DNA of 64,000 nt from contig NZ_CP095072.1 of NCBI RefSeq assembly GCF_022919115.1, positions 3,720,001-3,784,000 of the forward strand, written 5' to 3'. A model generated the notes under the pieces. The model did not search any database. It was not told where the DNA came from and saw only the letters and a program-made list of their open reading frames with translations. The stretch is from Gracilibacillus caseinilyticus. GTDB lineage: Bacteria > Bacillota > Bacilli > Bacillales > Amphibacillaceae. A program made the translations under genes and the position numbers. Shown here in pieces: positions 646 to 61,245 of this stretch; position 1 is the first letter of the stretch; each line of letters opens with the position of its first letter.

Positions 646-1221
646 ATAATATGGATTATGTAAACTAGATTGTACTACAATGTGGTAATTTTGACATATT
701 TATGTGCGTAGCAAAGCTCCGGAAATATACTCTGCGTTCTGCGGGGCACGGATTCAGCTAGGCTACTACATGCACTGCTTCTTTGCTGCCTTGTACCGAG
801 GAAGCTACTTCGAAGCAATACTTGTAGACACAGGCACAGACAAAGTCGATCTTTAGCTCGCGCTGACGCATGCGGAGTCTCCGTACATTTCCTATGCTTA
901 AGGAAGTGTTACATCGTATGTAACTGCTAAAAACAGTGGTTTTAGGCATATAGAATTCGAATAGCATCATGGCAATGATAATCAGCTCAATGTAATAGCT
1001 CTTGTTTACGTTGTAGAGTCTGTACCATAGCGCAGGCCAACCACGTAGACTACCGCGGGACGTGCAGGTGCTGAAGATCCACTTTGTGAAGCGATCATCT
1101 TCGCAAAGTGAGCTTCAGCCGTGCCCCGTAGGACGCGAAGTAGTTGGCCGGAGCGGTTATCCTAGCACACTATCTATTTCAAAATTACCACTAAGCTTGT
1201 AGTTTACATAATCCGTATTCT
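646..1221 (-). repeat. Miniature inverted-repeat element, copy A
   Basis: A 576-bp non-coding element between khpA and ylqD. It starts with ATAATATGGATTATGTAAAC and ends with the inverted copy (GTTTACATAATCCGTATTCT), about 22 bp of terminal inverted repeat with few mismatches. Just inside, GTGGTAATTTTGAC (about 681) is matched by the inverse CAAAATTACCAC (about 1182), extending the symmetry. The interior holds two hairpin modules. At 1033-1166, GGCCAACCAC pairs with GTAGTTGGCC, and CTGAAGATCCACTTTG pairs imperfectly with CAAAGTGAGCTTCAG. The left arm has the R-type sequence (GTAGCAAAGCTCCGGAAATA) and the right arm the L-type (TTGGCCGGAGCG), so this copy is inverted relative to copies B, C and D. 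The rest of the 408-1298 gap shows no gene. Confidence 0.85.
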
Positions 1222-1298
1222 AAAAACCCACACTTTCACTTTTGCAACTTAAGCTGAAATTTTTGTGATTCGGTTATATACATACTTTTGTTTATGAA

Positions 1299-1329
1299 AA
1301 AGAGGGGGGCTTTGGAAGCCTCCCTCTTT
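1299..1329 (-). terminator. Rho-independent terminator after khpA
   Basis: A 14-bp stem with one mismatch (AAGCCTCCCTCTTT at 1316-1329 with its partner at 1299-1312) and a 3-nt loop. On the minus strand it is followed by a T run. The stem starts inside the khpA stop codon. It ends the rpsP-khpA transcript before ylqD. Confidence 0.85.
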
Positions 1330-1555
1330 ACATGATATCTAAATAAATTCTTTTATTAGATTTCATCCCAGCTGCATAGACAACTGTTCGGATTGATTTG
1401 GCAATGCGACCATTTTTGCCGATCACTTTCCCGACATCATTCTCATGAACATGAAGATGATAAATATGTTTGTTATCCTCTTCTTTCTCCGTGACAACAA
1501 TTTCTTCTGGGTGATCTACTAATGGTTCTACAATTGTTTCAATCAATGATTTCAT
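1328..1555 (-). CDS. khpA: KH domain RNA-binding protein KhpA
   Basis: A 75-residue protein made of a single type II KH domain, with the RNA-contacting GxxG loop visible as GKNG at residues 46-49 within GKVIGKNGRIAKSI. In Bacillota this small protein (YlqC) partners with KhpB/Jag. The pair binds RNA and influences cell division and elongation; that role is family knowledge. It follows rpsP by 17 bp and is almost certainly co-transcribed with it. A strong terminator begins at its stop codon. Length is normal for the family. Confidence 0.93.
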   Translation of the reverse strand: MKSLIETIVEPLVDHPEEIVVTEKEEDNKHIYHLHVHENDVGKVIGKNGRIAKSIRTVVYAAGMKSNKRIYLDIM

Positions 1556-1572
1556 CGAATCACATCACTTTA

Positions 1573-1842
1573 TTATTGATTTTTTGATTCGTGGAATTTA
1601 GTCATAACGCCTTCTTTAGAGAACAAGTTGCGTACCGTATCACTCGGCTTCGCACCTTTAGTCATCCAATCAAGCGCTTTGTTTTCATCTAATGACACTT
1701 CAACCGGATTAGCTACCGGATTATATGTTCCAATTTGTTCGATGATACGTCCGTCACGTGGTGAACGAGAATCTGCCACTACGATACGGTAAAATGGATT
1801 TCTTTTAGAACCCATACGTTTTAAACGAATTTTTACTGCCAT
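1573..1842 (-). CDS. rpsP: 30S ribosomal protein S16
   Basis: Small-subunit protein S16, 89 residues (family usually 80-92), with the characteristic start [21 protein letters not shown] and the following DSRSPRDGR and IGTYNP motifs. It binds 16S rRNA during assembly of the 30S body. It is preceded by a GGAGGTG ribosome binding site and lies 77 bp downstream of ffh, heading the short rpsP-khpA pair. No anomalies. Confidence 0.98.
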
Positions 1843-1919
1843 TTTGTTACACCTCCAAATAAATATCTCACAAGAAAGAATTGTATCAGATTTATTTTAG
1901 TCTGTAAAGTGTTTTTACC

Positions 1920-3281
1920 TTACATGAACGGAAAATTTAAACCTTTTTGTTTTTTACGCTTTTTGCCTTTCTTTCCTTGCTGCATGTTGGTCATTTGTTT
2001 CATCATTTTTTTCATTTCTTCAAATTGCTTTAACAAACGGTTCACTTCCGATACAGAACGGCCGGAACCTTTCGCAATACGCTTACGGCGACCTGCATTT
2101 ATCACACTGGGATCTTGACGTTCCTGTGCTGTCATCGATTGAATAATTGCTTCAACATGTGTAATCTGCTTCTCATCAAAATCAACGTTCTTAAGACCTT
2201 TCATCTTATTCGCGCCAGGAATCATGTCGATCAGTTCATCAAGTGGTCCCATATTTTTCACCTGACCCATTTGTTCAAGGAAATCATCAAACGTAAACGA
2301 AGCGGATCGCATTTTTTCTTCTAATTCTTTTGCTCGTTTCTCGTCAACATTTTCCTGGGCTTTTTCGATTAAGGACAGTACATCACCCATCCCCAGAATA
2401 CGCGACGCCATACGTTCAGGATGGAACACTTCCAATTGATCGAGTTTTTCTCCCATACCAGCAAATTTAATCGGCTTATCCGTAACAGCTTTAATCGATA
2501 GCGCTGCCCCGCCACGGGTATCACCGTCAAGTTTTGTTAATACGACACCAGTGACATCCAATTGTTCATTAAAGCTTTCTGCTACGGTTACAGCATCCTG
2601 ACCTGTCATAGAATCTACGACTAAGAATACTTCATCAGGATTGACGTTTCCTTTAATTTGGATTAACTCATCCATTAATTCGTTATCGACATGCAGACGA
2701 CCTGCAGTATCAATAAGAACATAATCAAGATGCTCTTCCTTCGCTTTCTCCATCGCATTGTTAACGATGTCTACCGGATTAGCTTCTGTACCTTCTGCAT
2801 ATACCGGAATATTTAACTGCTTCCCTAGTGTCTCCAGTTGATCAATTGCTGCCGGGCGATAAACGTCACCTGCTACCAGTAACGGTTTTCGATTATATTT
2901 CTTTCGTAATAAATTTGCTAATTTACCTGTTGTGGTTGTTTTACCTGCACCTTGTAGACCGACCATCATAATCACTGTCGGCGGACGATCAGCTACAGCA
3001 ATTTTGCTCTCATCGCCACCCATCAAGGCTGTTAATTCTTCCTTCACCACTTTAATAACCTGCTGTCCAGGTGTAAGACTTTCCATTACTTCCTGGCCTA
3101 CTGCACGTTCTTTCACTTTCTTTACAAAATCTTTTACTACTTTAAAGTTAACGTCTGCCTCTAATAAAGCTAATCGGACCTCACGGGTCATTTCTTTTAC
3201 GTCTTGCTCACTTACTTTACCTTTTCCTTTAATCTTTTGAATGGTATTCTGCAGGCGGTCGGCTAAACCTTCAAATGCCAT
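1920..3281 (-). CDS. ffh: Signal recognition particle GTPase Ffh
   Basis: The protein part of the signal recognition particle, which binds signal peptides and 4.5S/scRNA and delivers ribosomes to FtsY at the membrane. At 453 residues it shows an N-terminal helical bundle (1-95), a GTPase domain with GLQGAGKTTTTGK (108-120), DTAGR (191-195) and TKLDGD (249-254), and a C-terminal M domain (about 300-453). The end is Met- and Lys-rich (MKKMMKQMTNMQQGKK), as expected for the signal-peptide groove and RNA binding. It starts 12 bp after ylxM and belongs to the ftsY-ylxM-ffh cluster downstream of smc. Start is ATG with a G-rich ribosome binding site. Confidence 0.98.
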   Translation of the reverse strand: MAFEGLADRLQNTIQKIKGKGKVSEQDVKEMTREVRLALLEADVNFKVVKDFVKKVKERAVGQEVMESLTPGQQVIKVVKEELTALMGGDESKIAVADRPPTVIMMVGLQGAGKTTTTGKLANLLRKKYNRKPLLVAGDVYRPAAIDQLETLGKQLNIPVYAEGTEANPVDIVNNAMEKAKEEHLDYVLIDTAGRLHVDNELMDELIQIKGNVNPDEVFLVVDSMTGQDAVTVAESFNEQLDVTGVVLTKLDGDTRGGAALSIKAVTDKPIKFAGMGEKLDQLEVFHPERMASRILGMGDVLSLIEKAQENVDEKRAKELEEKMRSASFTFDDFLEQMGQVKNMGPLDELIDMIPGANKMKGLKNVDFDEKQITHVEAIIQSMTAQERQDPSVINAGRRKRIAKGSGRSVSEVNRLLKQFEEMKKMMKQMTNMQQGKKGKKRKKQKGLNFPFM

Positions 3282-3293
3282 ACTATTCGCCCC

Positions 3294-3620
3294 CTATTCG
3301 ATTTCAATAATTGCTTCTATCTTCGTCTTTAATTGCTCATCATTTCTTTCATCAGCGATGTCACTTATTTCCTTAAGGAGTGACTGCCGTGCGAGAAATT
3401 TCTGATATAAGCCAAGCTTTTGCTCATATTCTTCTAGCATTTGTTCCGTTCTTCGAATATTATCATAAATTGCCTGTCTTGATACATTCGATGTCTCGGA
3501 AATTTCACCTAATGAAAAATCTTCCAAATAATACATTTCCATATAACTGCGCTGTTTCTCCGTTAAGAGTTCCTGGTAAAAATCATACAGTGCATTAATC
3601 CTAGTCGTTTTATCTAACAT
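3294..3620 (-). CDS. ylxM: YlxM/p13-like helix-turn-helix protein
   Basis: A 108-residue protein of the UPF0122 (YlxM/p13) family, which is regularly encoded directly before ffh and has been linked to SRP function in streptococci. Residues about 18-65 look like a sigma-70 region 4 type helix-turn-helix: [22 protein letters not shown], then [16 protein letters not shown]. The C-terminal half is a charged helix. Start ATG is preceded by AGGAG. It sits between ftsY (74 bp upstream) and ffh (12 bp downstream). The precise molecular role is not shown by the sequence. Confidence 0.9.
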
Positions 3621-3694
3621 AAAAAAGACTCCTCGTTAAGTAAAATGCCTTTACATTTTAGTCTACTCATCCTGAAGAACAACTGTCAAGTTTT

Positions 3695-4699
3695 TCAGGA
3701 TGACTCTTCTTCAATCATATCCGCAAACAGCCCATAGACAAATGCATGTGGATCAAAGGTTTGCAGATCAGTCACTTTCTCTCCTAACCCGACGAGTTTA
3801 ACCGGAATACCTAATTCATTACGAATAGCAAGTACAATACCGCCTTTCGCAGTACCGTCGAGTTTCGTTAATACAATTCCCGACACTTCGGTTGATTGAG
3901 AGAAAGTTTTTGCTTGGCTTAACGCATTTTGTCCTGTTGTTGCATCTAGCACTAATAGTACTTCATGGGGTGCGTTTGGCACTTCTCGTTCGATGACACG
4001 TTTTACTTTGGCCAATTCATTCATCAGATTGACTTTATTTTGGAGACGCCCTGCTGTATCGCATAATAATACATCTGCATTCCTTGATTTAGCAGCCTGA
4101 ATCCCGTCATAGATTACCGCGGCAGGATCACTGCCTTCACTATGCTTGATAACATCAACACCGACACGTTTACCCCATTCATTTAATTGCTGAATCGCAC
4201 CAGCACGGAAGGTATCACCAGCGGTAAGCAGGACTTCTTTTCCTTCTGTTTTTAATTGGTGTGCCAGTTTTCCGATGGTTGTAGTTTTACCAACACCGTT
4301 AACACCAACAAACAAAATAACTGTTAACTCGCCTTCCTGGATATTTAAAGAGGTATCTTCTATTTCTGTATCTTTTCCTTGGTAAATCTCTACAAGCTTT
4401 TCAGAAATTACTTCTTTTACTTCTTTCGTGTCTTTAATGTTACGACGTTTCACTTCCATTTCCAGCTCTTCAATCAATTCCATAACGGTCGTAACACCGA
4501 CATCTGCAGAAATCAATACTTCTTCTAAGTCCTCAAAAAATTCTTCATCTACTTTTCGATAGCGTGCAACAAGGTCGTTAATTTTTTCTGAAAAAGATTT
4601 TCTCGTTTTACTCAAACCATCTTTGTATTTGTCCGTTACTTCTTCTTGATCTTGACTATTGGATTGGAATTTTTCTTTTAATTTCTTCAGGAAACTCAC
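3695..4699 (-). CDS. ftsY: SRP receptor GTPase FtsY
   Basis: The membrane-associated receptor for the signal recognition particle. At 334 residues it has only a short charged N-terminal region instead of the long acidic A domain of enterobacteria, as is usual in Bacillota. The NG domain shows GVNGVGKT (132-139), DTAGRLQ (214-220) and TKLDGTAKGG. The start is a GTG at 4699 with GAGGAGG seven bases upstream; the ATG overlapping it runs straight into a stop. It follows smc by 17 bp, so smc-ftsY-ylxM-ffh can form one unit. Confidence 0.97.
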   Translation of the reverse strand: MSFLKKLKEKFQSNSQDQEEVTDKYKDGLSKTRKSFSEKINDLVARYRKVDEEFFEDLEEVLISADVGVTTVMELIEELEMEVKRRNIKDTKEVKEVISEKLVEIYQGKDTEIEDTSLNIQEGELTVILFVGVNGVGKTTTIGKLAHQLKTEGKEVLLTAGDTFRAGAIQQLNEWGKRVGVDVIKHSEGSDPAAVIYDGIQAAKSRNADVLLCDTAGRLQNKVNLMNELAKVKRVIEREVPNAPHEVLLVLDATTGQNALSQAKTFSQSTEVSGIVLTKLDGTAKGGIVLAIRNELGIPVKLVGLGEKVTDLQTFDPHAFVYGLFADMIEEESS

Positions 4700-4716
4700 A
4701 TTAATACCTCCTCTTC

Positions 4717-7700
4717 TTATGCTTCTAACAATTCAGGGGCTTCTTCGAGCTTCACAGATACTAATCTGGAAACACCTGATTCTTGCATAGTCACCCCATA
4801 TAAAACATCGGCTTCTTCCATTGTACCTTTACGGTGTGTAATAACAATAAATTGAGTATGTTTACTATAATATTTTAAATATTGAGCAAATCTTGCCACA
4901 TTTGCTTCATCGAGTGCTGCTTCTACTTCATCAAGCACACAGAATGGGACCGGACGGACACGAAGGATCGCAAACAGTAATGCAATGGCTGTTAAGGCGC
5001 GTTCACCACCTGAAAGCAAGCCCAATTGCTGTAACTTCTTACCGGGAGGCTGGGCGATAATATCAACACCAGTCTCTAATAACTGATTCGGATCAGTTAA
5101 TTTCAGTTCTGCATGTCCTCCACCAAATAATCGTTGGAAAACGACCGTGAATTCTTCTTTAATTTGTGAGAAGGTCTCATCAAATCGTCTCGTCATCTCT
5201 TCATCCATTTCCGCAATGATTTCATATAGGGTCCGTTTGGCTTCGACCAGATCCGTTTGCTGGCTTGTCAAAAATTCATGCCGTTCTTTAATCCGGTCAT
5301 ATTCCTCGATTGCCCCAATATTTACAGTACCAAGTTCTTCAATTGATTTTTTGATCAGTTTTACCTGCTCTTTGGCATTTTCTAAATGATCTGGTGCAGG
5401 GTAATCTGCTTTTGCTTTTTCGAACGTCATGCTGTACTCATTTTCTAGCAGTTGCAACCTGTTATCCAAATCAAGATCTAAACGATTTCGACTGATTTCA
5501 ATCGCTTGAATGTTTTGTTGCAAATCGTATTCTTCTTTTTGTGCAAGTCTGATTGATTCATCTAACGTGGTCACGTTTTGCTGACTCGCAGAACGAGCAT
5601 CTCTTAGTTGTTGCAACGCTTCTTGGTTACTCTGTTTCTGCTGCCTTTTATCCTCAATCTGTTGCTCAATCTCTTCTTCCGTCTGTTGACTATTTTTTAC
5701 ATCAATCAGCTGTTGTAATTGTTGTTCTTTCGTGCTTTGTATTTCCTTGTATTCTGCCATTTCCGATTCTGTTTTTGCAACTTTTTCTTTCTGATTGGTT
5801 AACTGACTTTTCAATTCGGCTTGCTGTACTTGTAGTCGTTGAAGGTTGTCCTTCAATCCCTCTTCTTTAGCCTCAAAATTTTGAAGCTGGTCTGTTAAGG
5901 TTTCAATCTTCTGATCAAGCGTTGTTAAGCGCTCGTGAAGAGATTCTAAATCACCATCAATCTGTGTACGTTGCTCTTCTAATAACTTCCTGTCCTGTTC
6001 CTGTTGCATCTTATCCTGATCATAAATGGATAGTTGATCATTCAAATGTTCAAGTGATAGTTTAGACTCTTTATACTCGCTATGATGCTTTTGATAATTC
6101 ATGCGCAATCCATCTAATTTTTGATACAAAGTGTCTTTTTGCACACGTAATTCAGCCAATGAATCTTTTTGTGTTTGCAATTGTTTTTCATAGTCAGTCA
6201 CGCGCACCTGGTATTCTTTGTATTTTTTCGTTAATGTCTTCAGTTCACGATCTCTCGTAAATAATGACTGGTTATTCTTTTTCTTGGCACCACCAGACAT
6301 GGAACCACCAGGATTCACGACATCGCCATCTAATGTGACGATTCGGTACCTTCTGCCAGTCTGTTGGGCAAAACGGTTGGCACCTTCTAATGTTTTTGAA
6401 ATGATAACATTCCCTAATAGTGCCCCCATCACCGATTGATATGTAGAATCAAATTGAATTAAATCTACGGCAACCCCAACAAACTCGTCATCCTGTTTAA
6501 GCATTTCAACAAAATTAGCCGGTATTTGTTTCGGTTTCATCGCATTAATAGGTAAAAAGGTAGCCCGCCCCTTGTTTGTTCTTTTAAGCCACTGGATTGC
6601 CTCACGCGCTGATTTTTCATTGTCGACAACGACATGTTGAGCTTGTGCACCCAATGCAGTTTCCATCGCATCCACCAGCTGATCACCAAACTCAATAAGC
6701 TCAGGTATCGCACCATGGATGCCTGATAGTTTATGTTGTTCACGAGCTTTCAACACTTCTTTGACGCCAAAATAAAAACCTTGGAAATCTTCTTTCAAAT
6801 CTTCGAGCATTTCTTTCTTAGATTTTAAATTCTCTAGCATTTGATAGCCTTTATACAGTTTCTGTTGCATATCATCGAGCATCTTATCTTCTGCTGATAC
6901 CTTTCGCTCGGTTTGCTGGTAAGATTCTTGCACTTCTTGTAACTCTTTACTTTCACGATCAACTACGGCTTCTGCTTGCTCCACCGCCCGAACAAGTTCA
7001 CTCCGCTCCTCATATAAATGTTGCCACTTAGTGGATTGAACATTCTTTTTGCCTTCCATTTTTTCTAATTGCTGCTGTATAGAATTCTTTTCATTACGTT
7101 TCGCTGCCTGCTCATTCAGCAGTTCAATATAATCACTCTTCAGCGTTTCAAGATCTTCTTCGATTGTATTTTTTCCTGTTTTTAATTGCTCATTAATAGT
7201 ATTAATTTGCTTCGTTAAAGATTGATTCTCTTGTTTATACCGGTCTAAAATCTGTTGTTCCTGTTGCAATTGCTCCAAAAGAGCTTCTTTTTTTTCTAGC
7301 GTATCGGCAATATCTCGTTCTAAATTCGTTTTATTTTCATGAAAATGCTGAAGCCTTTCATGAAAGATTTTCTTGTTACCTTCAAGATTCTCTAATTCCT
7401 GTGTTGCAACTAATAATGTTTCCTGTAATTTTGTAATTTGTTCATCTGCCTGCTGGACTTCCTGTTTTAACTGCGTACTTTTTTGTTCATGTGTTTCAAT
7501 CCATTGTTGCTTACCTTTTAAATCAGTACGCATCTTAGTTAATTCCTGTTCAGAAGCTTGCCATTGATCATTCAGCTGCTCAATTTCTTTTGCTAGCAAG
7601 CCGACTTCTACATTTGTCAGCCGTTCTTTTTGGGACAGATATTCTTTTGCAATCGACGCTTGCTTTGCCAATGGTTCCAATTGTCCGTCGATTTCATAAA

Positions 7701-8283: not shown

Positions 8284-8346
8284 TTATAAAACTCCTATTT
8301 ATATCATTTCATCGCGAAAAATCAAGATTGGATTATATTTAATCCT

Positions 8347-8702: not shown

Positions 8703-8712
8703 TGAACTTTTC

Positions 8713-9500
8713 ATAATACGGATTATGTCAAAAAGCGTTGTGGTAAATTTTGAAATGATTCATGTGCTGGAATACCGCTCCGGCCAACCACTTCACGTCC
8801 TGCGGGCACGGCTGAAGATCCACTTAGTCTGTGCCTGTGTCTGCAAGTATCGCTTTGAAGCGTGCTACCTTGGCACAAGGCAGAAGCTGTGCAAGTAGCA
8901 GCCTAGCTGAAGCTGTACCCCTATAGCCGTCAAGTTAAGGTAAGGCTTTTAAAAAGCAAGGTGGATACGTACCGTAATGGGTACAAGTTATGTATGGGGA
9001 GGGGATTTTTTATGAGTTTTGTGAATGATATGAAACCATTTAAAAAGCTATTCCTGAGGTATTGTCGGTTTCGAAACTACAAAATTGGCCCAAGAAACTG
9101 GATTTGTGAAACGCCAGAAGAAACTAAAACCTGATCAAAATCTATATTGGCACGGACAAAGAGAGCATCGGTATTGACACAAGAGTCCTTTTGATATCCT
9201 TGAGTGGTTCTAAATTTGATTCTTTTGGACAGCTTTTGACGTTTACTCTTTCAAACAGTCATAGGGTTGATTCTTATGGACGAAAATCGGAAAAAACCTA
9301 TTAAACTGTCCATAAGAATCGATCCTATGATATGAGCAAACATGTAAGGCGGTTTAAGCACTTTTTAACTTTTTCTTAGCTTGACGGTTATGAGCCATGC
9401 CCACAGGACGCGGAGCATATTTCTGGAGTTTTGCTAAGCAAATACAATATATCAAAATTACCATCTTGTAATACAGTCCACTTTACATAATCCGTATTAT
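8713..9500 (+). repeat. Miniature inverted-repeat element, copy B (with nested insertion)
   Basis: A 788-bp element between the convergent yfkK and rnc. Both termini are canonical: ATAATACGGATTATGTCA at the left, TTTACATAATCCGTATTAT at the right. The left arm is L-type (GTGGTAAATTTTGAAATG, then CCGCTCCGGCCAACCACTTC). The right arm is R-type (ACGCGGAGCATATTTCTGGA, then TTTGCTAAGCAAATACAATA). The interior hairpin region is interrupted by a second, unrelated inverted-repeat element at about 8927-9387. Without that insertion the copy would be about 330 bp, like copies C and E. Confidence 0.85.
8927..9387. mobile_element. Nested decayed insertion sequence, IS4-like
   Basis: The segment is bounded by CCGTCAAGTTAAG (left) and its imperfect inverse CTTAGCTTGACGG (right), suggesting its own terminal repeats. 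Near 9012-9145 on the plus strand a broken reading frame begins MSFVNDMKPFKKLF. After two frame changes it continues LAQETGFVKRQKKLKPDQ, which resembles the N-terminus of IS4-family transposases. The rest of the transposase is gone. Positions 9259-9281 and 9308-9330 form a further 23-bp imperfect hairpin, and the motif TGATTCTT(T/A)TGGAC recurs nearby. No clear target duplication is visible. Assignment to IS4 is from memory of the motif and is tentative. Confidence 0.5.
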
Positions 9501-9514
9501 TTCCTTCTTGGCAT

Positions 9515-19106: not shown

Positions 19107-19190
19107 ATAGGTGAAAAAGCAGACAATTACAGCCACAAAAGCGAAATTCAGAAGCAATCATGCTCATTAAGAAATGAAAATTGGGTGCTT

Positions 19191-19508
19191 ATAATACGGG
19201 TTATGTCAACTAGCTCTGGGCCATTTTAATATTTATTTGTGTGCTGGGATATCGCTCCGGCCAACCACTTCGCATCCTGTGGGGCACGGCTTCAGCTAGG
19301 CTACTACTCGAACAACTCCTTTTCTGCCTTAGCTTACTTCGAAGTGATACTAGCAGCCACAGGCACATACAAAGTGGTCTCCGTGTCCGAAAATCCCGCA
19401 GGAAAGTGTTTTTCTTTCCGAGGAAGTTGAGGCCGACCCCACAGGACGCGGAGCATATTTCCGGATTACCACATTGTCATATAGTTCAATTTACATAATC
19501 CGTATTAT
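19191..19508 (+). repeat. Miniature inverted-repeat element, copy C
   Basis: A compact 318-bp copy between rpmB and spoVM. Termini are ATAATACGGGTTATGTCAAC and AATTTACATAATCCGTATTAT. The L-type arm (CGCTCCGGCCAACCACTTCG) is on the left; the R-type arm (GACGCGGAGCATATTTCCGG) is on the right but lacks the TTTGCTAAGC segment seen in copies B and D. Inside is the hairpin with AAAATCCCGCAGGAAAGTG and TTTCTTTCCGAGGAAG that copy D also has. Confidence 0.87.
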
Positions 19509-19616
19509 AGGTAGTAGTTGTTGAGAAATGGGTTTAAATAATGAATCCAGTGAACATGTTTCCGAAGCTTCGCCGGACTCACTGTCTACCAATATAAATC
19601 TGTTTCATAGTTAAGG

Positions 19617-34936: not shown

Positions 34937-35012
34937 ATAAGCAAAGAAAATTATATACTTACAGTCATAAAGTAGAATTCAGAACCATACTTAAGAAAAA
35001 GTATAGGTTCTC

Positions 35013-35084
35013 ATAATACAGATTATATAAAGTGGAACTGTATTCACAGTATGGTAAATTTGATTTATTGTATTTGCTTAGCAC
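35013..35084. repeat. Truncated miniature element, copy G (one end only)
   Basis: ATAATACAGATTATATAAAG, then GTGGAACTGTAT, TATGGTAAATTTGATTTATT and GTATTTGCTTAGCA, align over about 70 bp with the inverted right (R-type) end of copy D. The other end and the hairpin interior are missing. It lies between rqcH and the convergent deacetylase gene. I see nothing else in 34937-35243. Confidence 0.75.
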
Positions 35085-35948: not shown

Positions 35949-36133
35949 AAATTACCTGCTTTCCTAATTAATAAGTTTACTAAAATCTATCTTAGTCATT
36001 GTCGGTCCTATTCCACAACAAATAACATTTTACGATTTTGAGTATCACTGAAATGATTATCTGTGATTTCTTCAAGAAAACAGGGCAAAAACCCAACAGG
36101 ACGTATCTAAATTAAGTATTTATTAAAGTTTCT

Positions 36134-36503
36134 ATAATACGGATTATGTAATGCTAGCGTTGCATCCATTTTGAAATGTAGTTAGAGGTATGAGGAAGCA
36201 GATTGACTGGTACCCTCATGTGACCATCCATATAGCAGCTTCATTCTCAAATACATTATGCTAGCACTGTTGCTTTTAGCTGTTCCAATCGTTGTAGAAC
36301 TTCCGTTAAGCGTAGGAAATATGTAGAGACTCCCGTGGGATCAGTCGTGTCCGAAAATCCCGCAGGAAAGCGGGTTTCTTTCCGAGGAAGTTGAGGCCGA
36401 TCCCACAGGACGCGGAGCATATTTCCGGAGCTTTGCTAAGCAAATACAATATATCAAACTTAGCATATTATTATACAGTTTCACTTTACATAATCCGTAT
36501 TAT
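36134..36503 (+). repeat. Miniature inverted-repeat element, copy D
   Basis: A 370-bp element upstream of the deacetylase and downstream of pyrE. Termini are ATAATACGGATTATGTAATG and ACTTTACATAATCCGTATTAT. The right arm is a full R-type end (GGAGCATATTTCCGGAGCTT, TGCTAAGCAAATACAATATA). The left arm has diverged, retaining only CATTTTGAAATG after the terminus. The interior has the hairpin around AATCCCGCAGGAAAGCGGG and CCCACAGGACGCGGAGC. The flanks 35949-36133 and 36504-36584 show nothing recognisable. Confidence 0.85.
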
Positions 36504-36584
36504 AAGCACCTGATGCTTCCCATTCTTCGACAAGCTCTCTTCTGCAAGTTACATTAATAACAGTGAAATATAATATTTTTACAT

Positions 36585-47559: not shown

Positions 47560-47660
47560 TGTTGTAACTCCCTCTTGTCTTTTAAAGAAAAATTTTGTTC
47601 TTAAAAAATTTTGCCACGTCGCATGACGACTCTGATAAAATTTTATACTTTCCAACGAAT

Positions 47661-47764
47661 AAAAAAACCTCTTTGCTAGGTCGCAAAGAGGCAGACGTGT
47701 CCTCAAAATGATACACGTTTCTCAAGATTGCAACCTTTTAAGCATCTCTGTACTTTTTTAAAGG
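47661..47764 (-). promoter_or_regulatory. PyrR-dependent attenuator upstream of pyrP
   Basis: In RNA sense, a PyrR-binding stem-loop lies at 47733-47764 (CCTTT stem, loop with ACAGAGATGCTT, AAAAGG closing strand). It is followed by a terminator hairpin, CCTCTTTGC / GCAAAGAGG (47669-47691), and a T run. With UMP bound, PyrR stabilises the first hairpin, preventing the antiterminator and allowing termination. The mechanism is known from B. subtilis. Confidence 0.88.
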
Positions 47765-47767
47765 TCT

Positions 47768-48331
<564 letters not shown>

Positions 48332-48375
48332 TTAATTCCTGTATTTATACTTAGATCATTTGCGTTATATAGTAT

Positions 48376-48475
48376 AAAAAAATCCTTATTCTCCGCGAGA
48401 GAATAAGGATTCTGGGCATACGTATAGCTATGCTAACCGTCTTCCTTTTCAGCCTCACGGGACTGTTTTAAAAGG
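48376..48475 (-). promoter_or_regulatory. PyrR-dependent attenuator in the pyr operon leader
   Basis: The PyrR-binding hairpin at 48444-48475 has CCTTTT / AAAAGG flanks and the loop CAGTCCCGTGAGGCTG, close to the consensus. Downstream, a 13-bp terminator stem AATCCTTATTCTC / GAGAATAAGGATT (48381-48411) precedes a T run. It regulates read-through into pyrR. Confidence 0.92.
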
Positions 48476-48494
48476 TCTTTATGATACTGTTAAT

Positions 48495-50130: not shown

Positions 50131-50270
50131 GCGTAGGCCAACCACGTAGACTCCCACGGGGATTGTGCAGGTGCTGAAGATCCACTTTGTGAAGCGATCT
50201 TCTTTACAAAGTTAGCTTCAGCCGTGCCCCGCAGGACGCGAAGTGATTGGCCGGAGCGGAATTTAAGCAC
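50131..50270. repeat. Partial miniature element, copy F (hairpin core only)
   Basis: The core GCGTAGGCCAACCACGTAGA to GAAGTGATTGGCCGGAGCGG is a 130-bp imperfect palindrome nearly identical to the module at 1031-1165 of copy A, including CTGAAGATCCACTTTGTGAA. Neither ATAATACGGATTAT terminus is found nearby. It lies between lspA and ileS. The flanks 49908-50130 and 50271-50371 show nothing else. Confidence 0.75.
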
Positions 50271-53321: not shown

Positions 53322-53565
53322 CATAAAAAAACTCCTCATCCCAAAAAGGGACGAGGAGTTCTCGCGGTACCACCCTTATAGACAGCAAGATCTTTCGTAC
53401 TGTCCACTCAGCAATTCGTAACGTGAATGATTCGTTTACACTTACTCTATTTCGGTGTAACTACTCATGGGTGATCTTCTATTAAAGGGCTAAATTAGGC
53501 TCCCACTATCCCTAAATCGCTACGTTAGCATACTTTAATATACTGTCCCAATCCTAGTATTTAAC
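53322..53565 (-). ncRNA. T-box riboswitch (isoleucine) upstream of ileS
   Basis: The T-box core AAGGGTGGTACCGCGAGA (complement at 53361-53378) is followed by a terminator, AACTCCTCGTCCC / GGGATGAGGAGTT, with a T run at 53322-53360. Stem I lies upstream (to about 53565), with a likely specifier ATC (Ile) at 53473-53475 in GAAGATCACCC. Uncharged tRNA-Ile pairs with the specifier and the T-box and prevents termination. Confidence 0.93.
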
Positions 53566-53621: not shown

Positions 53622-53624
53622 GGC

Positions 53625-54149: not shown

Positions 54150-54224
54150 CTCCTAATAGATGTCTTTCTTTTATACATTATCTTATCATACTTTTTAGGC
54201 AAGTCAGCAAAATTTTCGCAAAAA

Positions 54225-54998: not shown

Positions 54999-55029
54999 TT
55001 AATCACCTGTCGTCTATGTAATACTGGAT

Positions 55030-55296: not shown

Positions 55297-55304
55297 TGAA
55301 TTGA

Positions 55305-55751
55305 TTACCACCTTTGTTCTGGATCTACTTCCTCCATTATTTCAGTAATATTACCTGATATTTCAATATTTTCAGGTGTACATAAGAAGGTCTGTGAACC
55401 TAATTTTTTTATTTGACCAGATACAGCATATACTGTACCACTCATAAAATCAATAATTTGACGGGCCTGCTGATTATCTACTCGCTGCAGATTGATGACA
55501 ACCGATCGCCGGTTTACAATATGATCGGCAATGTCTTGTACTTCATTATAGTTTCTAGGTTCACATAATACCATTTTCGTATTCTTTTGTACCGAAGATA
55601 AGCTGACGACATTTGTTTTATCCTCTTTGCGCTGACTTCTTCTCATTGGTTCTGCTTCTGCAGAAGATTCCTGTTCCAGCTCCTCTTCTACTATTTCATA
55701 TTCTTCATCTTCGAGTCCGAAAAGATTACGAAATTTTCCTTTCATACTCAT
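55305..55751 (-). CDS. sepF: Cell division protein SepF
   Basis: Membrane-binding protein that tethers and bundles FtsZ. At 148 residues it has the N-terminal amphipathic helix MSMKGKFRNLFGLED, an acidic linker, and the ring-forming domain (about 60-140; EPRNYNEVQDIADHI, GTVYAVSGQIKKLG). Start ATG follows GAGGTGA. Its neighbours are ylmE and ylmG. Confidence 0.96.
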   Translation of the reverse strand: MSMKGKFRNLFGLEDEEYEIVEEELEQESSAEAEPMRRSQRKEDKTNVVSLSSVQKNTKMVLCEPRNYNEVQDIADHIVNRRSVVINLQRVDNQQARQIIDFMSGTVYAVSGQIKKLGSQTFLCTPENIEISGNITEIMEEVDPEQRW

Positions 55752-55764
55752 CGTTCATTCACCT

Positions 55765-56445
55765 CTATTCTTCATATGGTCCTACAAGGCTCGAACCAAT
55801 ACGTATATGGGTTGCTCCCTCTTCAACAGCGATCTGATAATCATTGCTCATGCCCATCGAAAGATAAGTACAGGGTGCATGACTGTGTCCTTTTTGTTTA
55901 ATTTGATCACGGAGTTTTCTTAACGAACGAAAAATTTCCCTTAATTGATTGCGATCTTCCATATATGGTGCCATTGTCATTAAGCCGACTACTCTAATAT
56001 TAGAATACCCTTCTAACGTTTCGATAAACGGTTCCACCTCAGCAGGTGACAGACCGTGCTTTGATTCTTCTCCACTAACGTTCACCTGAACGAAGCAATC
56101 AACAGGCTTGTCTGCTCGCTTATTAATTTCCTTTGCTAAAGACTTACGGTCCAAAGAATGAATATAATCTACTTTATCGACCACTTCTCTTACTTTTCTC
56201 GATTGAAGGGTTCCAATAAAATGCCAATTAGCTTTACTGCCGATCTGCTCATACTTCTCTAAAAAACCTTCGATTCGATTTTCACCAAAATGGCTGATCG
56301 TTGCTTCTAATGCTTCAAGGGCTCGTTCAACGGATACATATTTCGTCACCCCAATTATTGAGATGTCTTTTGGATGACGTCCTGTCTTTTCACATGCTTG
56401 ATTGATTTGCTGGTTGATTGCTGCTAAGTTTTCTGCTACAGACAT
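55765..56445 (-). CDS. ylmE: PLP homeostasis protein, YggS family
   Basis: Pyridoxal phosphate-binding protein (COG0325) that buffers PLP; not known to be an enzyme. At 226 residues it has the PLP-Lys in SIIGVTKYVSVERA (Lys about 35), HFIGTLQSRK, and STDL-type SMGMSNDYQIAVEEGATHIRIGS at the C-terminal phosphate site. It lies between ylmD and sepF. Confidence 0.95.
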   Translation of the reverse strand: MSVAENLAAINQQINQACEKTGRHPKDISIIGVTKYVSVERALEALEATISHFGENRIEGFLEKYEQIGSKANWHFIGTLQSRKVREVVDKVDYIHSLDRKSLAKEINKRADKPVDCFVQVNVSGEESKHGLSPAEVEPFIETLEGYSNIRVVGLMTMAPYMEDRNQLREIFRSLRKLRDQIKQKGHSHAPCTYLSMGMSNDYQIAVEEGATHIRIGSSLVGPYEE

Positions 56446-56466
56446 GATTATACTCCCTTCTCACTT

Positions 56467-57270
56467 TTAAGCTAGACCAATGAATCCGATCATCCGGCCT
56501 GTCGGATGCTTGTCACGTCGATGAGAATAAAAAAGGCTGTCATGCGACGTGCAATACGATGTTGTATATATATGAGCTGGTAATACGCCTGCCTCGATTA
56601 GTAATTGCTTGTTTAACTGCTTTAAATCCAATTGGTATTGACCATCCCAACCGTCGTAACAATTTTGATGAGCAGGTTCAATATGCTGAATGACATGATC
56701 ATTGACTTCATAACAGGACGGACAAATACTTGGTCCTATTACTACTTCTATATCACTTGGATCAGCAGACAATTGTATCATCGCCTGGGTGGTTTTCTGT
56801 GCGATTTTGTTTACGGTCCCTTTCCATCCCGCATGTGAGATGGCAACAATTCCTTTTTTCCTGTCTGCGAAAAATAACGGCACACAGTCAGCAAACAGTG
56901 CAGCACAGACCATCTCATTCTCCATTGAAACTAAACCATCGGCATCTGGTATTGCCGTTTCCATGGAGTGACTCCCCTTACCTTTATCTCGTTGCTCTGC
57001 TATGTGCACTTTGTTTCCATGCACTTGTTCTGCTAATACCCAATGATCTAAAGGTACAGAAATAGCATTCGCAAGTAATTGTCGATTGTTCAAAACGTGC
57101 GTAGGATTGTCCTCAACATGAAATCCTAAATTGTTGCTATCATAAGGGGGTAAACTGACCCCACCTTCTTTTGTCGTAAAACCTGCTATGATCTTCTTAT
57201 CACCATTTATCCATGGAGCTATCCAAACTATCGGCTCTTTTTCATCTCGTACAAAGGGTTCTGTCATCAT
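56467..57270 (-). CDS. pgeF: Multicopper-fold nucleoside/purine hydrolase family protein YlmD (PgeF)
   Basis: DUF152 / laccase-domain family (YfiH/PgeF), linked to peptidoglycan editing in E. coli and to purine nucleoside handling. The ATG at 57270 follows GGGAGG and gives 267 residues; extension upstream is unsupported. Metal-site residues are visible in EQVHGNKVHIA, ADCVPLFF and ISHAGWKGTV. It is coded between ylmC and ylmE. Confidence 0.9.
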   Translation of the reverse strand: MMTEPFVRDEKEPIVWIAPWINGDKKIIAGFTTKEGGVSLPPYDSNNLGFHVEDNPTHVLNNRQLLANAISVPLDHWVLAEQVHGNKVHIAEQRDKGKGSHSMETAIPDADGLVSMENEMVCAALFADCVPLFFADRKKGIVAISHAGWKGTVNKIAQKTTQAMIQLSADPSDIEVVIGPSICPSCYEVNDHVIQHIEPAHQNCYDGWDGQYQLDLKQLNKQLLIEAGVLPAHIYTTSYCTSHDSLFYSHRRDKHPTGRMIGFIGLA

Positions 57271-57332
57271 ACCCCTCCCTATTTTACCCCATTTTATCAC
57301 ATATTGTGCGATCATAACAGCGACAATGTCGT

Positions 57333-57626
57333 TTATTGCGAATATGCGGAAGAATCGTCATCTTTTGGCGAAGTCGTTATTGCAGAAAAGCTGCCATTCT
57401 TTTTAACCAGGATCACGTCATGACCAATTTTCATAACATGCTCCCAAGGGATAATGACTTCTCTTGACTCTCCAAAAACACCGAACATTTTTGTTTTAGT
57501 GGCTACGACCAGATTTGAAATGCTGCCTAAATCGATATTAATTTCAATATCTGTCAAATTGCCAAGCTTAGTACCATCTTCAATATAGACAATATCTTTT
57601 AATTGTAGTGACGATAATGTGATCAT
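57333..57626 (-). CDS. ylmC: YlmC/YmxH family sporulation protein (PRC-barrel)
   Basis: A 97-residue PRC-barrel protein of the YlmC/YmxH family, found in spore formers next to the ylm cluster; function unknown. It starts MITLSSLQLKDIVYIEDGTKLG, and the ATG at 57626 has AAGGAGG about 10 nt upstream. The frame is open another 51 codons upstream, but that sequence is unlike any protein and lacks a ribosome site. The C-terminal tail after residue about 80 is longer than in B. subtilis. Confidence 0.87.
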   Translation of the reverse strand: MITLSSLQLKDIVYIEDGTKLGNLTDIEINIDLGSISNLVVATKTKMFGVFGESREVIIPWEHVMKIGHDVILVKKNGSFSAITTSPKDDDSSAYSQ

Positions 57627-57761
57627 GAATACCTTTACCTCCTTTTTATCAATATATGTCTTATTAAAAAAAATATGGTGTTTATGACAATAAAAATAGT
57701 TCATCTTCTCAGATGAACTGCGCAACCTATTAAAGTATTCGTAAAAGAAAGGATGATAAAA

Positions 57762-57941
57762 GTGGGTAGAGATGAACATAAGAAAAAAGCTGGAAAGAAT
57801 CGCTTAGCACAAACACCAAAGCAAGAAAAGATGGATGGTTTTGACGTCGAATTTTCCTCTGAATTAGCAGATGCGGAGGACAAAGAAGCACAAGCGCGTG
57901 GTAAACAGGCGGACAGTCGAGCGAAACACGCTAGACCATAA
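57762..57941 (+). CDS. YfhD family protein
   Basis: A 59-residue hydrophilic, highly charged protein that I recognise as the YfhD family from GRDEHKKKAGKNRLAQTPKQ, DVEFSSELADAED and EAQARGKQADSRAK. It has no membrane segment and no known function, and is common in spore-forming Bacillaceae. GTG at 57762 with AAAGGA 8 nt upstream fits best; an ATG three codons earlier directly abuts that site. It is on the plus strand, convergent with sigG, at the place where B. subtilis has ylmA. Confidence 0.7.
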   Translation: MGRDEHKKKAGKNRLAQTPKQEKMDGFDVEFSSELADAEDKEAQARGKQADSRAKHARP

Positions 57942-57983
57942 TAGAAGATTGCCATTTCTGTTTAAATTTGATGATAACGAAAA

Positions 57984-58029
57984 AGCCGAATTTAACACGA
58001 AGTATTTATCCTCCGTGTTAAATTCGGCT
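57984..58029. terminator. Bidirectional terminator between the yfhD-like gene and sigG
   Basis: A perfect 16-bp stem (AGCCGAATTTAACACG with its inverse) around a 14-nt loop. On the minus strand GGCTTTTTCG follows, ending sigG transcripts. It also lies 43 bp after the plus-strand gene. The stem is related to the hairpin after ileS. Confidence 0.85.
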
Positions 58030-58060
58030 ATATCTGTTTTTGCTCTAGCCCTTCTTTTAC

Positions 58061-58840
58061 TTACTCAAACATTTCTTTATTCATTTCTTTAATTGCGGCT
58101 TTTTCCAAACGTGAGACCTGTGCTTGCGAAATACCGATCTCTTCTGCGACTTCCATTTGTGTTTTTCCTTGGAAGAAGCGTTTATTTAAGATCATTTTCT
58201 CACGTTTATTCAGTCGGTGCATTCCTTCTTTGATAGATAAATTATTAATCCAATCATTATCTTTAATGGAATCATCACCAACTTGATCCATTACATAAAT
58301 AGGATCTCCTCCATCGTTGAAAATCGGTTCAAACAATGAAACAGGGTCTTGAATGGCATCCAATGCAAATATTACGTCTGTCACAGGCACATCTAATTCA
58401 TTCGCAATTTCCAGAGGAGAAGGATCCTTTGATGTCTTATTCAAAAGCTTTTCTCTTGCATGAAGTGCTTTATACGCAATATCCCGTAATGACCTGGATA
58501 CCCTAATTGGATTGTTGTCACGGAGATACCGTCTAATTTCACCAATAATCATCGGAACAGCATAGGTGGAAAATTTCACGTTTTGACTTAAATCAAAATT
58601 ATCAATAGATTTTAATAAGCCGATACATCCTACTTGAAACAGATCATCACCATACTCTCCACGATTATGGAAGCGTTGAATAACACTAAGTACTAACCTT
58701 AGATTGCCATTGACCAATTTTTCACGTGCTGATTGATCTCCATTTTGCATGGCTTTGAATAAAATTCTCATCTCTTCATTCTTTAGAACCGGTAATGTAG
58801 CTGTGTCTACCCCACATATTTCTACTTTGTGTCTTGTCAT
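58061..58840 (-). CDS. sigG: Late forespore sigma factor SigG
   Basis: Directs late forespore transcription during sporulation. The ATG at 58840 with GGGAGGG upstream gives 259 residues starting MTRHKVEICGVDTATLPVL, the conserved N-terminus. Region 2 contains LVNGNLRLVLSVIQRF and the promoter-melting segment FSTYAVPMIIGEIRRYLRD. Region 4 has KTQMEVAEEIGISQAQVSRLE. A sigma-F-type promoter lies just upstream, while sigE read-through is also possible. Confidence 0.97.
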   Translation of the reverse strand: MTRHKVEICGVDTATLPVLKNEEMRILFKAMQNGDQSAREKLVNGNLRLVLSVIQRFHNRGEYGDDLFQVGCIGLLKSIDNFDLSQNVKFSTYAVPMIIGEIRRYLRDNNPIRVSRSLRDIAYKALHAREKLLNKTSKDPSPLEIANELDVPVTDVIFALDAIQDPVSLFEPIFNDGGDPIYVMDQVGDDSIKDNDWINNLSIKEGMHRLNKREKMILNKRFFQGKTQMEVAEEIGISQAQVSRLEKAAIKEMNKEMFE

Positions 58841-58876
58841 ATCGTACCCTCCCAATTGGAGATCCTTCTCAAAAAT

Positions 58877-58905
58877 CAGTATCACCAATCAGGAGGTTTT
58901 TATGC
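58877..58905 (-). promoter_or_regulatory. Sigma-F-type promoter of sigG
   Basis: GCATA (58901-58905), 14 bp, GGTGATACTG (58877-58886), matching the sigma-F consensus GYATA and GGNNANANTR. The start would be about 30 bp before the sigG ATG. In B. subtilis spoIIIG is likewise transcribed by sigma-F. Confidence 0.75.
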
Positions 58906-58934
58906 ATCATCCATCATTTACCATGAAGAGAGAT

Positions 58935-59657
58935 TTACACCATTTTATTAAACTCTTTTTGCAATCTTTTGATGATTTTTTTCTCCAATCTGGAAATATA
59001 GGACTGCGATATTCCAAGCATATCTGCTACATCTTTTTGTGTCATTTCTTCTTCTTTTTCCACAAGACCAAAACGCAATTCCATGATTTGTCGTTCACGT
59101 CCATTTAATTGATCTAATGCTTTTCGTAATAACGATTTATCTATACTTTGTTCTAAGTCTTTAAATGTCACATCTTCATCAGTACCAAGTACGTCTGACA
59201 ACAGTAATTCATTGCCATCCCAATCAACGTTTAACGGTTCATCAAAAGAAACCTCTGTTTTTATTTTATTATTTTTCCTGAGGTACATAAGAATCTCATT
59301 TTCAATACATCTTGATGCGTATGTTGCTAGCTTGATTTTTTTCTCAGGATTAAATGTATTGATTGCTTTAATTAAACCAATTGTACCAATACTGATCAAA
59401 TCCTCAATATTAATACCAGTATTTTCAAACTTTCTAGCAATATAAACAACAAGACGTAAATTTCGTTCAATCAGCATTGCTCGAGCTGCCTTGTCACCTA
59501 CCGGAAGCCGATTAATTAATTCAAATTCTTCTTCCTTCGACAATGGTGGAGGTAATGCTTCGCTTCCCCCAATATAATAAATTTCATCTACTTTAAACCC
59601 TAGCTTCTTTAAAATTTTGTAAAAAATCATTTTATATTTTTGTTGCACGATTTGCAT
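58935..59657 (-). CDS. sigE: Early mother-cell sigma factor SigE (pro-protein)
   Basis: Made as an inactive membrane-bound precursor and cleaved by SpoIIGA to start mother-cell gene expression. From the ATG at 59657 (AAGGAG 8 nt upstream) it is 240 residues. The pro-sequence is the basic, hydrophobic first 25-30 residues ([21 protein letters not shown]). Region 2 has [23 protein letters not shown] and [21 protein letters not shown]. Region 4 has [20 protein letters not shown]. It lies 26 bp after spoIIGA. Confidence 0.97.
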
Positions 59658-59683
59658 TCCTTCCACTCCTTATCGATATAATG

Positions 59684-60577
59684 TCACCCTGTCTGTTGAA
59701 ATAATTTAGGGTGTAATAAACAATGATAACTGTCATCAGATACCAAATTCCCAAATTGAATTCCTATTAACACCTTTTTACTAGTCAGTTGAAGATCCTT
59801 CATATGTATGTTCAAAAGGTCGGGTTTAAATGCCAGCATAAAATCCTGATCGCCACTAACACCCTGAAATGGTAATAGTCTAAATCCTACATTTTGAAAT
59901 TCATTACTTTCACCTCCTAGCAGTTGTTGATAGGAAGTTCGAAGCTGTGCAATTTGCGCCTCTGTATACCAATGCCTTAAGATTGTTTCATCTACAATAA
60001 TCACAGGCGTTTGGGTAAAAGGATCAACTAAATGGTTCCCACTGTCCAAATAACCGATCGTTTCTATGCTTTTCTCTTTCCAGCCGATCGAGACAGTATA
60101 GTAAAATTCCTGTTCAAACTGTTGCATTTTGTGCTTGTCCATTCGGAATTTTGTGAAAATTAGAACAATAGGAAAACCAATTAATACAAATAGTGCATGT
60201 ATTTGACCTGCCTCCACTCCTTGACTAGTCAAATTCCCTTCTTGATAAAATAAAAAATGAATGGCAAATAAGCCACCGCCTATTGAAAAAGTCATAAAAT
60301 AAAATGTACATAATAACTTTAAATAGACAGCAACATTTCGGAATCCAAACGCCATGCATACCATCAGCATGGAGTGAATAACTTTGAAATACCAAGCATC
60401 TATCGGGAATGTTGGAGCAATGAAAGATAACGGTACAATAATGGATCCAAATAAGCTCGCAAGTAAAAGGCGATACCATTTGCTCATGTTTCTGGTGATG
60501 GACTGGGTCAGCAAAAGGATCATCCAGTCAATCATAATATTGATAAGCCAAATGACTTCGATATAAACTGTCACCAT
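59684..60577 (-). CDS. spoIIGA: Sporulation sigma-E processing protease SpoIIGA
   Basis: Membrane aspartic-type protease that cleaves pro-SigE after a forespore signal. At 297 residues the N-terminal half has five hydrophobic segments (about 1-27, 36-56, 64-83, 88-110, 126-143). The C-terminal half holds the catalytic DSGN (178-181) in GYLDSGNHLVDP. It is first in the spoIIGA-sigE operon. Divergence from B. subtilis is typical for this protein. Confidence 0.95.
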   Translation of the reverse strand: MVTVYIEVIWLINIMIDWMILLLTQSITRNMSKWYRLLLASLFGSIIVPLSFIAPTFPIDAWYFKVIHSMLMVCMAFGFRNVAVYLKLLCTFYFMTFSIGGGLFAIHFLFYQEGNLTSQGVEAGQIHALFVLIGFPIVLIFTKFRMDKHKMQQFEQEFYYTVSIGWKEKSIETIGYLDSGNHLVDPFTQTPVIIVDETILRHWYTEAQIAQLRTSYQQLLGGESNEFQNVGFRLLPFQGVSGDQDFMLAFKPDLLNIHMKDLQLTSKKVLIGIQFGNLVSDDSYHCLLHPKLFQQTG

Positions 60578-60622
60578 GTCCTCCCTTTCCCAACAAACTT
60601 AACAAGCATTTCTTGTCTACTA

Positions 60623-60655
60623 AGTATAAAGAAAGAAAGGAAAGAAGTCTGTCAC
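60623..60655 (-). promoter_or_regulatory. spoIIG-type promoter with long spacing
   Basis: GTGACA (60650-60655) and TATACT (60623-60628) are separated by 21 bp. The B. subtilis spoIIG promoter is also unusual in having about 22 bp and needing phosphorylated Spo0A. A near 0A box, TGTTGAA (60703-60709, one mismatch to TGTCGAA), lies about 50 bp upstream. The stretch 60720-60937 shows nothing recognisable. Confidence 0.5.
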
Positions 60656-60937
60656 AGTTTGTATGCAAAAATCATCTAGTTTTAAGAAAATTTGATTGAA
60701 ATTGTTGAATGAATGAATTAGCGGGAGGGTAGTTAGATCGCAACATGCCTTGATCAAGGCACTAAGTGTGAAACCGGCTAACTCAAGAAGTATGTCGATG
60801 CTAAATGAGGAAAACTTTCAATGAAGCTTGCAGCAGAAGTATAACAAAATGATTGCACGAACAGATAGGGTATTATGATCACCGCAAAATTCAAAAATTC
60901 TTCAGATCAGAACCACTCACAGTCCTATCAAAATTAC

Positions 60938-61245
60938 ATAATACGGATTATGTAAAGTGAAACTTTATGATGATGTGGTAATTTTGATAGTTAATATATG
61001 CGTAGCAAAGCTCAGGAAATATGCTCCGCGTTCTGTGGGGCAAGGCTTTACCTAGGCTATTACTTGCACTGCTTCTTTGCTGCCTTGTGCCGAGGAAGTC
61101 CACTTCGAAGCGATACTTGTAGACACAAGCACAAACAAAGTGGATCTTTAGCCTTGCCCGCAGGACGCGAAGTGGTTGTCCGGAGCGTTATCATAGCACT
61201 TTAAACATGCCAAAATGACCTCTACGCTGACATAATCCGTATTAT
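60938..61245 (-). repeat. Miniature inverted-repeat element, copy E
   Basis: A compact 308-bp copy between ftsZ and spoIIGA. Termini are ATAATACGGATTATGTAAAG and ACATAATCCGTATTAT. The left arm is R-type (GTGGTAATTTTGATAG, GCGTAGCAAAGCTCAGGAAA), the right arm is inverted L-type (GAAGTGGTTGTCCGGAGCG). The interior folds with GGGGCAAGGCT pairing to AGCCTTGCCC and AAGTCCACTTC to AAAGTGGATCTT. Confidence 0.87.

Follow-up and report, generated by a model that had tools for sequence, protein, structure and literature searches.

A chromosome normally has a single dif site, and most of the additional Xer sites known belong to plasmid modules or phages. A 64,000-nucleotide stretch of the Gracilibacillus caseinilyticus chromosome (positions 3720001-3784000 of one 4.51-Mb contig; hereafter the window, its host genome being labelled G000) carries copies of a miniature, hairpin-rich element, each complete copy bounded by two inverted sites that resemble dif. 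The CarA protein, with 85% identity to its best named match, likewise groups the host with Gracilibacillus. Being short, non-coding, intergenic and multicopy, with inverted ends, these elements recall miniature inverted-repeat transposable elements (MITEs) and the bcr-type repeats of Bacillus, from which they differ in having dif-like recombination sites as ends and an inner part that occurs in both orientations between conserved flanks. Invertible switches such as cwpV of C. difficile and mba of Ureaplasma also place a segment between inverted repeats, with tyrosine recombinases in part named as candidates, but they are single loci controlling a gene, unlike the dispersed copies described here.

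A close parallel is offered by the pdif D modules of Acinetobacter, in which (PMC13141974, PMC11705084, PMC12907356) inverted sites made of a XerC arm, a 6-bp spacer and a XerD arm enclose a segment with the XerD arms internal, as they do here. In that system inversion between sites with matching spacers was demonstrated by PCR (polymerase chain reaction) and sequencing, and pdif recombination requires XerC (PMC13141974); inversion and module replacement where spacers match are likewise suggested here, from sequence comparison. Acinetobacter modules mostly carry genes and occur on Rep_3 plasmids, some also on chromosomes, in arrays where C modules lie between them, whereas the present elements are single, mostly gene-free hairpins of 0.5 kb, number hundreds per chromosome, reside in a firmicute and have conserved outer flanks (P and T, below). 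The G000 family would therefore work as a D module but is not classed in the Acinetobacter system, because it has neither gene cargo nor C-module arrays. Dif-like sites are also shared with integrative mobile elements exploiting Xer (IMEX) and their CTX-phi-type attP, use of XerC/XerD being presumed in our case; in CTX-phi, single-stranded DNA folds so that its two att sites pair and form a site recombined by XerC (PMC5357621), an arrangement resembling the inverted sites paired at the hairpin base here. IMEX integrate at chromosomal dif and carry genes, whereas the copies described here are dispersed and have a centre that differs from that of dif.

In our assessment the copies are probably mostly non-coding D-type dif modules, inverted and exchanged by the host's XerC and XerD. 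Their ends were searched as the 16-mer ATAATACGGATTATGT, with up to 3 mismatches allowed in the window and up to 2 in the genome count, the latter controlled with the reversed pattern. An initial annotation of the window had described a palindromic terminus; the end sequence is real, but it forms the core of a dif-like site 28 bp long, in which a XerC arm and a XerD arm flank a 6-bp centre: both flanks of the 16-mer, though otherwise unrelated, share further bases outward to give a 28-mer. That first reading overlooked the dif-like nature of the 16-mers plus flanks, and the repeat that runs on beyond them. The 28-mer consensus in G015, the main comparison genome from the host genus, is ACTTCCTATAATATGGATTATGTtAACT, and the host dif is ACTTCCCATAATATATATTATGTAAACT. 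A dif-type pattern finds 6 places in G000 (control 0): dif itself, with 1 mismatch, and five that have TATGGA, an element centre, and 3 mismatches, four of these being ends of paired copies and one an unpaired end. The candidate dif is taken as the real one because it lies opposite dnaA in both genomes, at distances of 2.41 and 2.39 Mb in G015 and 2.29 and 2.22 Mb in G000. At the 12 arm positions beyond the 16-mer, 128 of 180 G015 ends and 70 of 172 G000 ends have at most 3 mismatches to the firmicute dif, against 0.3% and 0.1% in the respective permuted controls, and 13 of the 180 G015 ends match all 22 arm positions. The weakest part of the dif-like site is the XerC arm on the P side in G000.

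Centres and orientations were compared in copies sampled from G000 and G015 rather than from the window alone. The element centres are TACGGA and TATGGA (mostly) and their relatives, and the dif centre, TATATA, occurs in none of 352 ends. Both ends of a copy carry identical centres in 59 of 85 G000 copies (shuffled mean 30.0, maximum 40), in 30 of 42 G015 copies (shuffled mean 23.8, maximum 29) and in 11 of 14 copies of a further genus genome, G007. The two sites of a copy are inverted, XerD arms internal: in 804 kb of G000 and 800 kb of G015 (positions 4401264-4801263 and 1-400000, joined and reversed), consecutive matrix-found sites in the '+-' arrangement lie within 1 kb in 43/43 and 42/52 cases respectively, and '-+' neighbours do so in 0/42 and 4/51. 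Modules are mostly single, with median '-+' spacings of 8.9 kb (G000) and 7.2 kb (G015). Leaving dif out, 65 of 76 exact-arm sites in G015 are oriented against the replication fork, a bias that probably follows gene orientation. As for enzymes, 8 genus genomes were covered, and the top two tyrosine recombinase matches of each, whose open frames span 299-312 aa, are taken as the XerC and XerD candidates, an assignment made without a tree. A dedicated extra recombinase was also considered and dropped, as no PF00589 match was obviously limited to G000 and G015, the matches not having been inspected singly.

The repeat extends past both 16-mers into two different outer sequences. P, of about 70 bp, adjoins a host gene, whose 3' end faces it in 60 of 65 typed copies; T, of about 60 bp, ends in a terminator-like hairpin and TTTTTCTTA. 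Of 176 copies, both sides were typed in 90, one side in 47 and neither in 39, and the doubly typed copies comprise 89 with P and T, one with two P and none with two T. This outer orientation is one-sided along the chromosome (56:9). The inner segment, by comparison, has distinct L and R arms and lies in both directions relative to P and T, at 20:22 in G000 (54 copies with at least one outer sequence typed) and 45:27 in G015 (82 such copies), the remaining 12 and 10 copies having an untyped arm or, in one copy, two L arms. The polarity ascribed to the element at the outset therefore holds in that the arms differ, but it belongs to the inner segment, which is found both ways round within its surroundings. 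G007, an independent set with diverged sequences, gives 8:3 (based on 11 of its 14 copies, those whose typing was complete and consistent, the references being drawn from the typed G007 copies themselves).

Pairwise similarities suggest the same separation. P similarity correlates with T similarity (rho 0.395, p 0.008, n 14 in G000; 0.189, p 0.026, n 55 in G015); the values for P against inner segment are 0.043 (p 0.36) and 0.133 (p 0.049), and those for T against inner segment, 0.127 (p 0.27) and 0.086 (p 0.17), are not significant. The sharpest case involves two G015 copies about 190 kb apart (L352 and L355), whose segments from 16-mer to 16-mer are identical at 526 of 527 positions and lie in opposite orientation between P and T. 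The first base beyond either 16-mer differs, and outer identity is 0.51 per side, compared with 0.50 for unrelated P-T comparisons. Across 110 full copies there are twenty pairs at 93% identity or more, all in G015; the 17 with all outer sequences typed divide into 8 opposite and 9 alike, although 15 of these stem from one set of six copies (93-99.8%), itself split 4:2 in orientation. The sites, their layout, both inner orientations and the base-exact edges of what appears to be one recent transfer can be read directly from the sequence, in which the inner segment seems to behave independently of its outer sequences and which bears the apparent footprint of modules inverting or exchanging at their sites.

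Mobility appears as positional turnover between G000 and G015, in which 633 kb align over approximately 0.8 Mb at 88.9% identity. Of 44 paired G000 copies, 10 are shared, 25 correspond to some end-like sequence, 6 to none and 3 are unmappable; for 42 paired G015 copies the counts are 11, 6, 17 and 8. What is missing from four loci is longer than the inner segment by some 110-190 bp, close to the combined length of P and T; other loci fit this excess less well, and divergence obscures the exact junctions. No clean target duplication was seen, the empty sites coming from an 89%-identical species and being too diverged, and a TA or other short duplication of IS630-like type was dropped because the flanks are themselves conserved repeats. 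As for an autonomous partner with the same ends, '+-' sites more than 700 bp apart comprise only copy B of the window in 804 kb of G000 and ten neighbours in G015, no transposase search having been made.

The scheme that would accommodate these observations is as follows. A module would consist of two inverted dif-like sites, XerC arms outside, and the roughly 0.5 kb of hairpin DNA that they enclose. The sites would be recognised by XerC and XerD of the host, called CodV and RipX in Bacillus. Recombination between the two sites of one copy would flip the inner segment, and recombination between copies sharing a 6-bp centre would swap inner segments between loci, with P on the gene side and the terminator-like hairpin of T staying put. 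A centre unlike that of dif would bar recombination with the chromosomal dif whilst permitting it between modules. Both the catalysis by XerC/XerD and this role of the centre we infer. PMC11705084 ascribes control of binding and cleavage to the ATAA-centre-TTAT motif, and supports exchange between plasmids. The proposal covers inversion and exchange, the origin and spread of P-T units being outside its scope. Cassette copying is an unlikely though conceivable alternative, whereby a folded single strand would pair the inverted sites into a double-stranded dif-like site, to be inserted by XerC (and XerD) into dif-like half sites beside gene terminators in either orientation, in effect a gene-free cross of an integron cassette and the CTX-phi attachment site.

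Several observations weigh against inversion and exchange of modules by Xer recombination. Compatible sites in their hundreds should lead to rearrangements of the chromosome; nevertheless, when the 804 kb of G000 and the 800 kb of G015 were compared on both strands, each of the 124 matches longer than 1 kb was collinear, so that recombination between distant copies is either rare or removed by selection. At the 10 shared loci the inner segment ranks anywhere from 1st to 32nd of 42 as its partner's match, a pattern that fits independent insertion or exchange too. In-place inversion at orthologous loci was accordingly dropped as a proof, most inner segments not being mutual best matches; at one locus only (A627665/B623557) do the outer flanks rank first of 42 while the inner segments differ, and this was not used as proof. 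The base before ATAA is C in the dif of G000 and of G015, and T in most ends. In G007 a G precedes ATAA both in 26 of 28 element sites and in that genome's dif candidate, but such a parallel between dif and ends holds only partially once G000 and G015 are included. The 45:27 ratio in G015 departs slightly from even (p 0.044), and the contrast between outer and inner similarity is clear in G000 (n=14) and weak in G015 (n=55). Several other species have different termini at single loci: in G010 and G013 (L319, L071), for example, the corresponding ends form a symmetric pair, CACATAA..TTATGTG, whose likeness to dif stops at the core. Finally, for Acinetobacter, PMC11705084 describes XerD cleavage as usually dependent on FtsK and intramolecular recombination between plasmid Xer sites as inefficient, the latter fitting exchange better than local flipping.

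The copies might instead be an ordinary MITE family with a transposase encoded elsewhere, the likeness of their ends to dif being due to chance or common AT-rich palindromy. The family is short, mostly non-coding and present in hundreds of copies with inverted ends and positional turnover, and the same hairpin family bears other ends in other species. We nevertheless consider this very unlikely, given the G015 ends that match every firmicute dif arm position, the position of the XerC arm, which lies beyond the inner segment on the P and T sides alike although these flanks are otherwise unrelated, and the both-ways occurrence of an inner segment for which a MITE predicts a fixed orientation relative to the sequences it carries; no clean target duplication was seen either, in empty sites that are diverged at 89% identity. 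A related possibility, that the inner segment is an independent element inserting either way into a separate T-P pad at a dif-like half site, draws on T-P joints that lack both inner segment and dif-like sites, at least two of which occur in the 800 kb of G015 (approximately 453847-454037 and 795346-795494 of the joined, reversed stretch) and also count against the module reading. The former is, by eye, a second T-P unit beside a terminator and the remnant of an older unit, where G000 has a filled unit, and CTTCCTAT, a short sequence directly repeated at the joint, would be consistent with target duplication. Empty pads nonetheless look rare, as that stretch of G015 has 42 paired copies and two such joints; the joints would also suit a deletion between short direct repeats across the hairpin; the 804 kb of G000 yielded none, though by an insensitive search (19 P and 18 T matches for 44 copies); and a search for symmetric empty sites gave 3 matches in 1.6 Mb, none an intact empty pad. 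Insertion into such pads thus seems quite unlikely.

RecA-type recombination or gene conversion might flip and homogenise inner segments, and would suit the many inner-segment pairs that match over part of their length only, in mosaic fashion, the copy with two L arms, and the species-specific centres, which suggest homogenisation. Conversion tracts should, however, end at random, whereas both L352/L355 edges fall at the 16-mers, and the shared inverted ends amount to about 28 bp, which is short for RecA; we give this mechanism little credence. Retention of the copies as RNA or terminator elements downstream of genes, with mobility incidental, is most unlikely of all: gene ends do face P in nearly all typed copies, the T side is terminator-like and the stems are stronger than those of shuffled sequences, but turnover between two related species is strong, there is no Rfam match and inversion of the inner part would scramble any sequence-specific RNA.

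The inner segment can form long stems, as the initial annotation had noted. Copies measure a median of 514.5 bp from outer edge to outer edge (range 133-788, 86 copies), and the inner part folds as one long hairpin in all 16 copies folded, from a sample of 52 full-length copies, with z-scores of -4.6 to -22.7 (20 shuffles per copy) and 12-16 of the first 16 bases paired with the opposite end. An alignment of the 52 has 55 consensus pairs with 98.1% of cells paired; compensatory cells number 47, in 9 pairs, compared with 4-16 when the pairing is slid, relatedness being uncontrolled in this count. Consistent with the reported non-coding character, no open reading frame of at least 90 aa overlaps the five window copies, A to E, and in the wider sample 11 of 86 copies overlap a mechanically called frame of at least 100 aa by more than 60 bp. 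A group II intron or known RNA was dropped as an identity for lack of an Rfam match: at E<=1 nothing was found across copy A (window positions 560-1300), and window-wide the only matches are minus-strand leaders, one T-box (53344-53564) and two PyrR binding leaders (48374-48479 and 47658-47768).

In the window, ATAATACGGATTATGT gives 14 matches in 11 places, three palindromic places being counted twice, compared with 1.03 expected and with 0 of 100 shuffles reaching 14. All five copies first annotated are present at the coordinates given for them, and arm typing agrees with the directions assigned to them. Copy A, typed RL, has a left dif-like site at 639..666 on the plus strand (GCTACCTATAATATGGATTATGTAAACT; XerC arm outside, centre TATGGA, XerD arm inside), a folded inner hairpin segment at 662..1205 with the R arm left and the L arm right, and a right site at 1201..1228 on the minus strand. 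Its outer sequences, both on the minus strand and approximate, are T-type at 585..638, with a degenerate terminator-like hairpin, and P-type at 1229..1294, adjoining what looks by eye like a terminator hairpin belonging to the gene next to it (about 1296-1330). Copy B is typed LR (L arm left, R arm right), with sites at 8706..8733 (plus) and 9480..9507 (minus) around an inner segment at 8729..9484, its extra length being due to what looks, by eye, like a nested insertion (about 8927-9387) bounded by the inverted sequences CCGTCAAG..CTTGACGG. The remaining three have shortened inner hairpin segments, each between a plus-strand left site and a minus-strand right site: copy C (arms L?) at 19207..19492, with sites 19184..19211 and 19488..19515; copy D (arms ?R) at 36150..36487, with sites 36127..36154 and 36483..36510 and an approximate minus-strand T-type outer sequence bearing a terminator-like hairpin at 36073..36126; and copy E (arms RL) at 60954..61229, with sites 60931..60958 and 61225..61252, the left being flanked by no recognisable P or T. 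Two further stretches had been taken for partial copies. One, at 35013-35084, is a one-end derivative, a deletion product at 35006..35084 on the plus strand that retains a single dif-like site and the end of the R arm; the other, at 50131..50270, is an inner hairpin half alone, with neither end detected at up to 3 mismatches.

Copies are not confined to the window, and the hundreds predicted genome-wide were borne out by 228 forward and 244 reverse ends in G000, against 1 and 6 for the control. This copy number, the turnover at about 89% identity and the near-identical inner segment at two loci together support the original view of a polar, hairpin-rich, non-autonomous mobile family. Ends with at most 1 mismatch were counted in 121 genomes, giving 169 + 178 in G000, 184 + 177 in G015, 7 + 11 of a variant end in G007 and no more than 5 in each of the others. 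The exact-arm dif pattern occurs 77 times in G015 and 5 times in G000, own dif included (control 0), and 0-1 times in each of fifteen further genus genomes, whilst a looser pattern across 159 family genomes gives 112+110 in G000, 162+152 in G015 and at most 4 in any other. Dif-like ends in numbers are thus a property of G000, G015 and, in altered form, G007. The hairpin family is more widespread: queried with the hairpin half of copy A, as in 50131-50270, it was found in 45 of 155 family genomes and 15 of 46 genera. It led to L319 and to single loci in two genomes of another genus (G151 and G159; L328 and L329) with termini ACTCAACTTTCGCAC, and the hairpin may be a passenger that swaps ends between species. 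Copy A had no match in plasmid and phage collections, nor the exact end pattern in viral contigs.

No report of non-coding, high-copy dif modules was found among the matches listed in the open-licence literature. If the module reading is correct, a chromosome with hundreds of inverted dif-like sites would provide a natural test of Xer site compatibility and genome collinearity, and would extend dif modules from the gene-carrying ones on Acinetobacter plasmids to non-coding ones in a firmicute.

Three minor observations concern the surroundings of such units and sites. Several G000 and G015 units are accompanied by a second repeat, consisting of a terminator-like hairpin (CTCGGCATTCGC..) and GGTACATACTAAATTTTCACTACGTC. 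At L010 the left flank resembles the T end of another unit, so that tandem units are possible. In a further genome, matches to the dif-arm pattern at G181:C9:36202, 36436 and 36670 share one orientation and a spacing of 234 bp.

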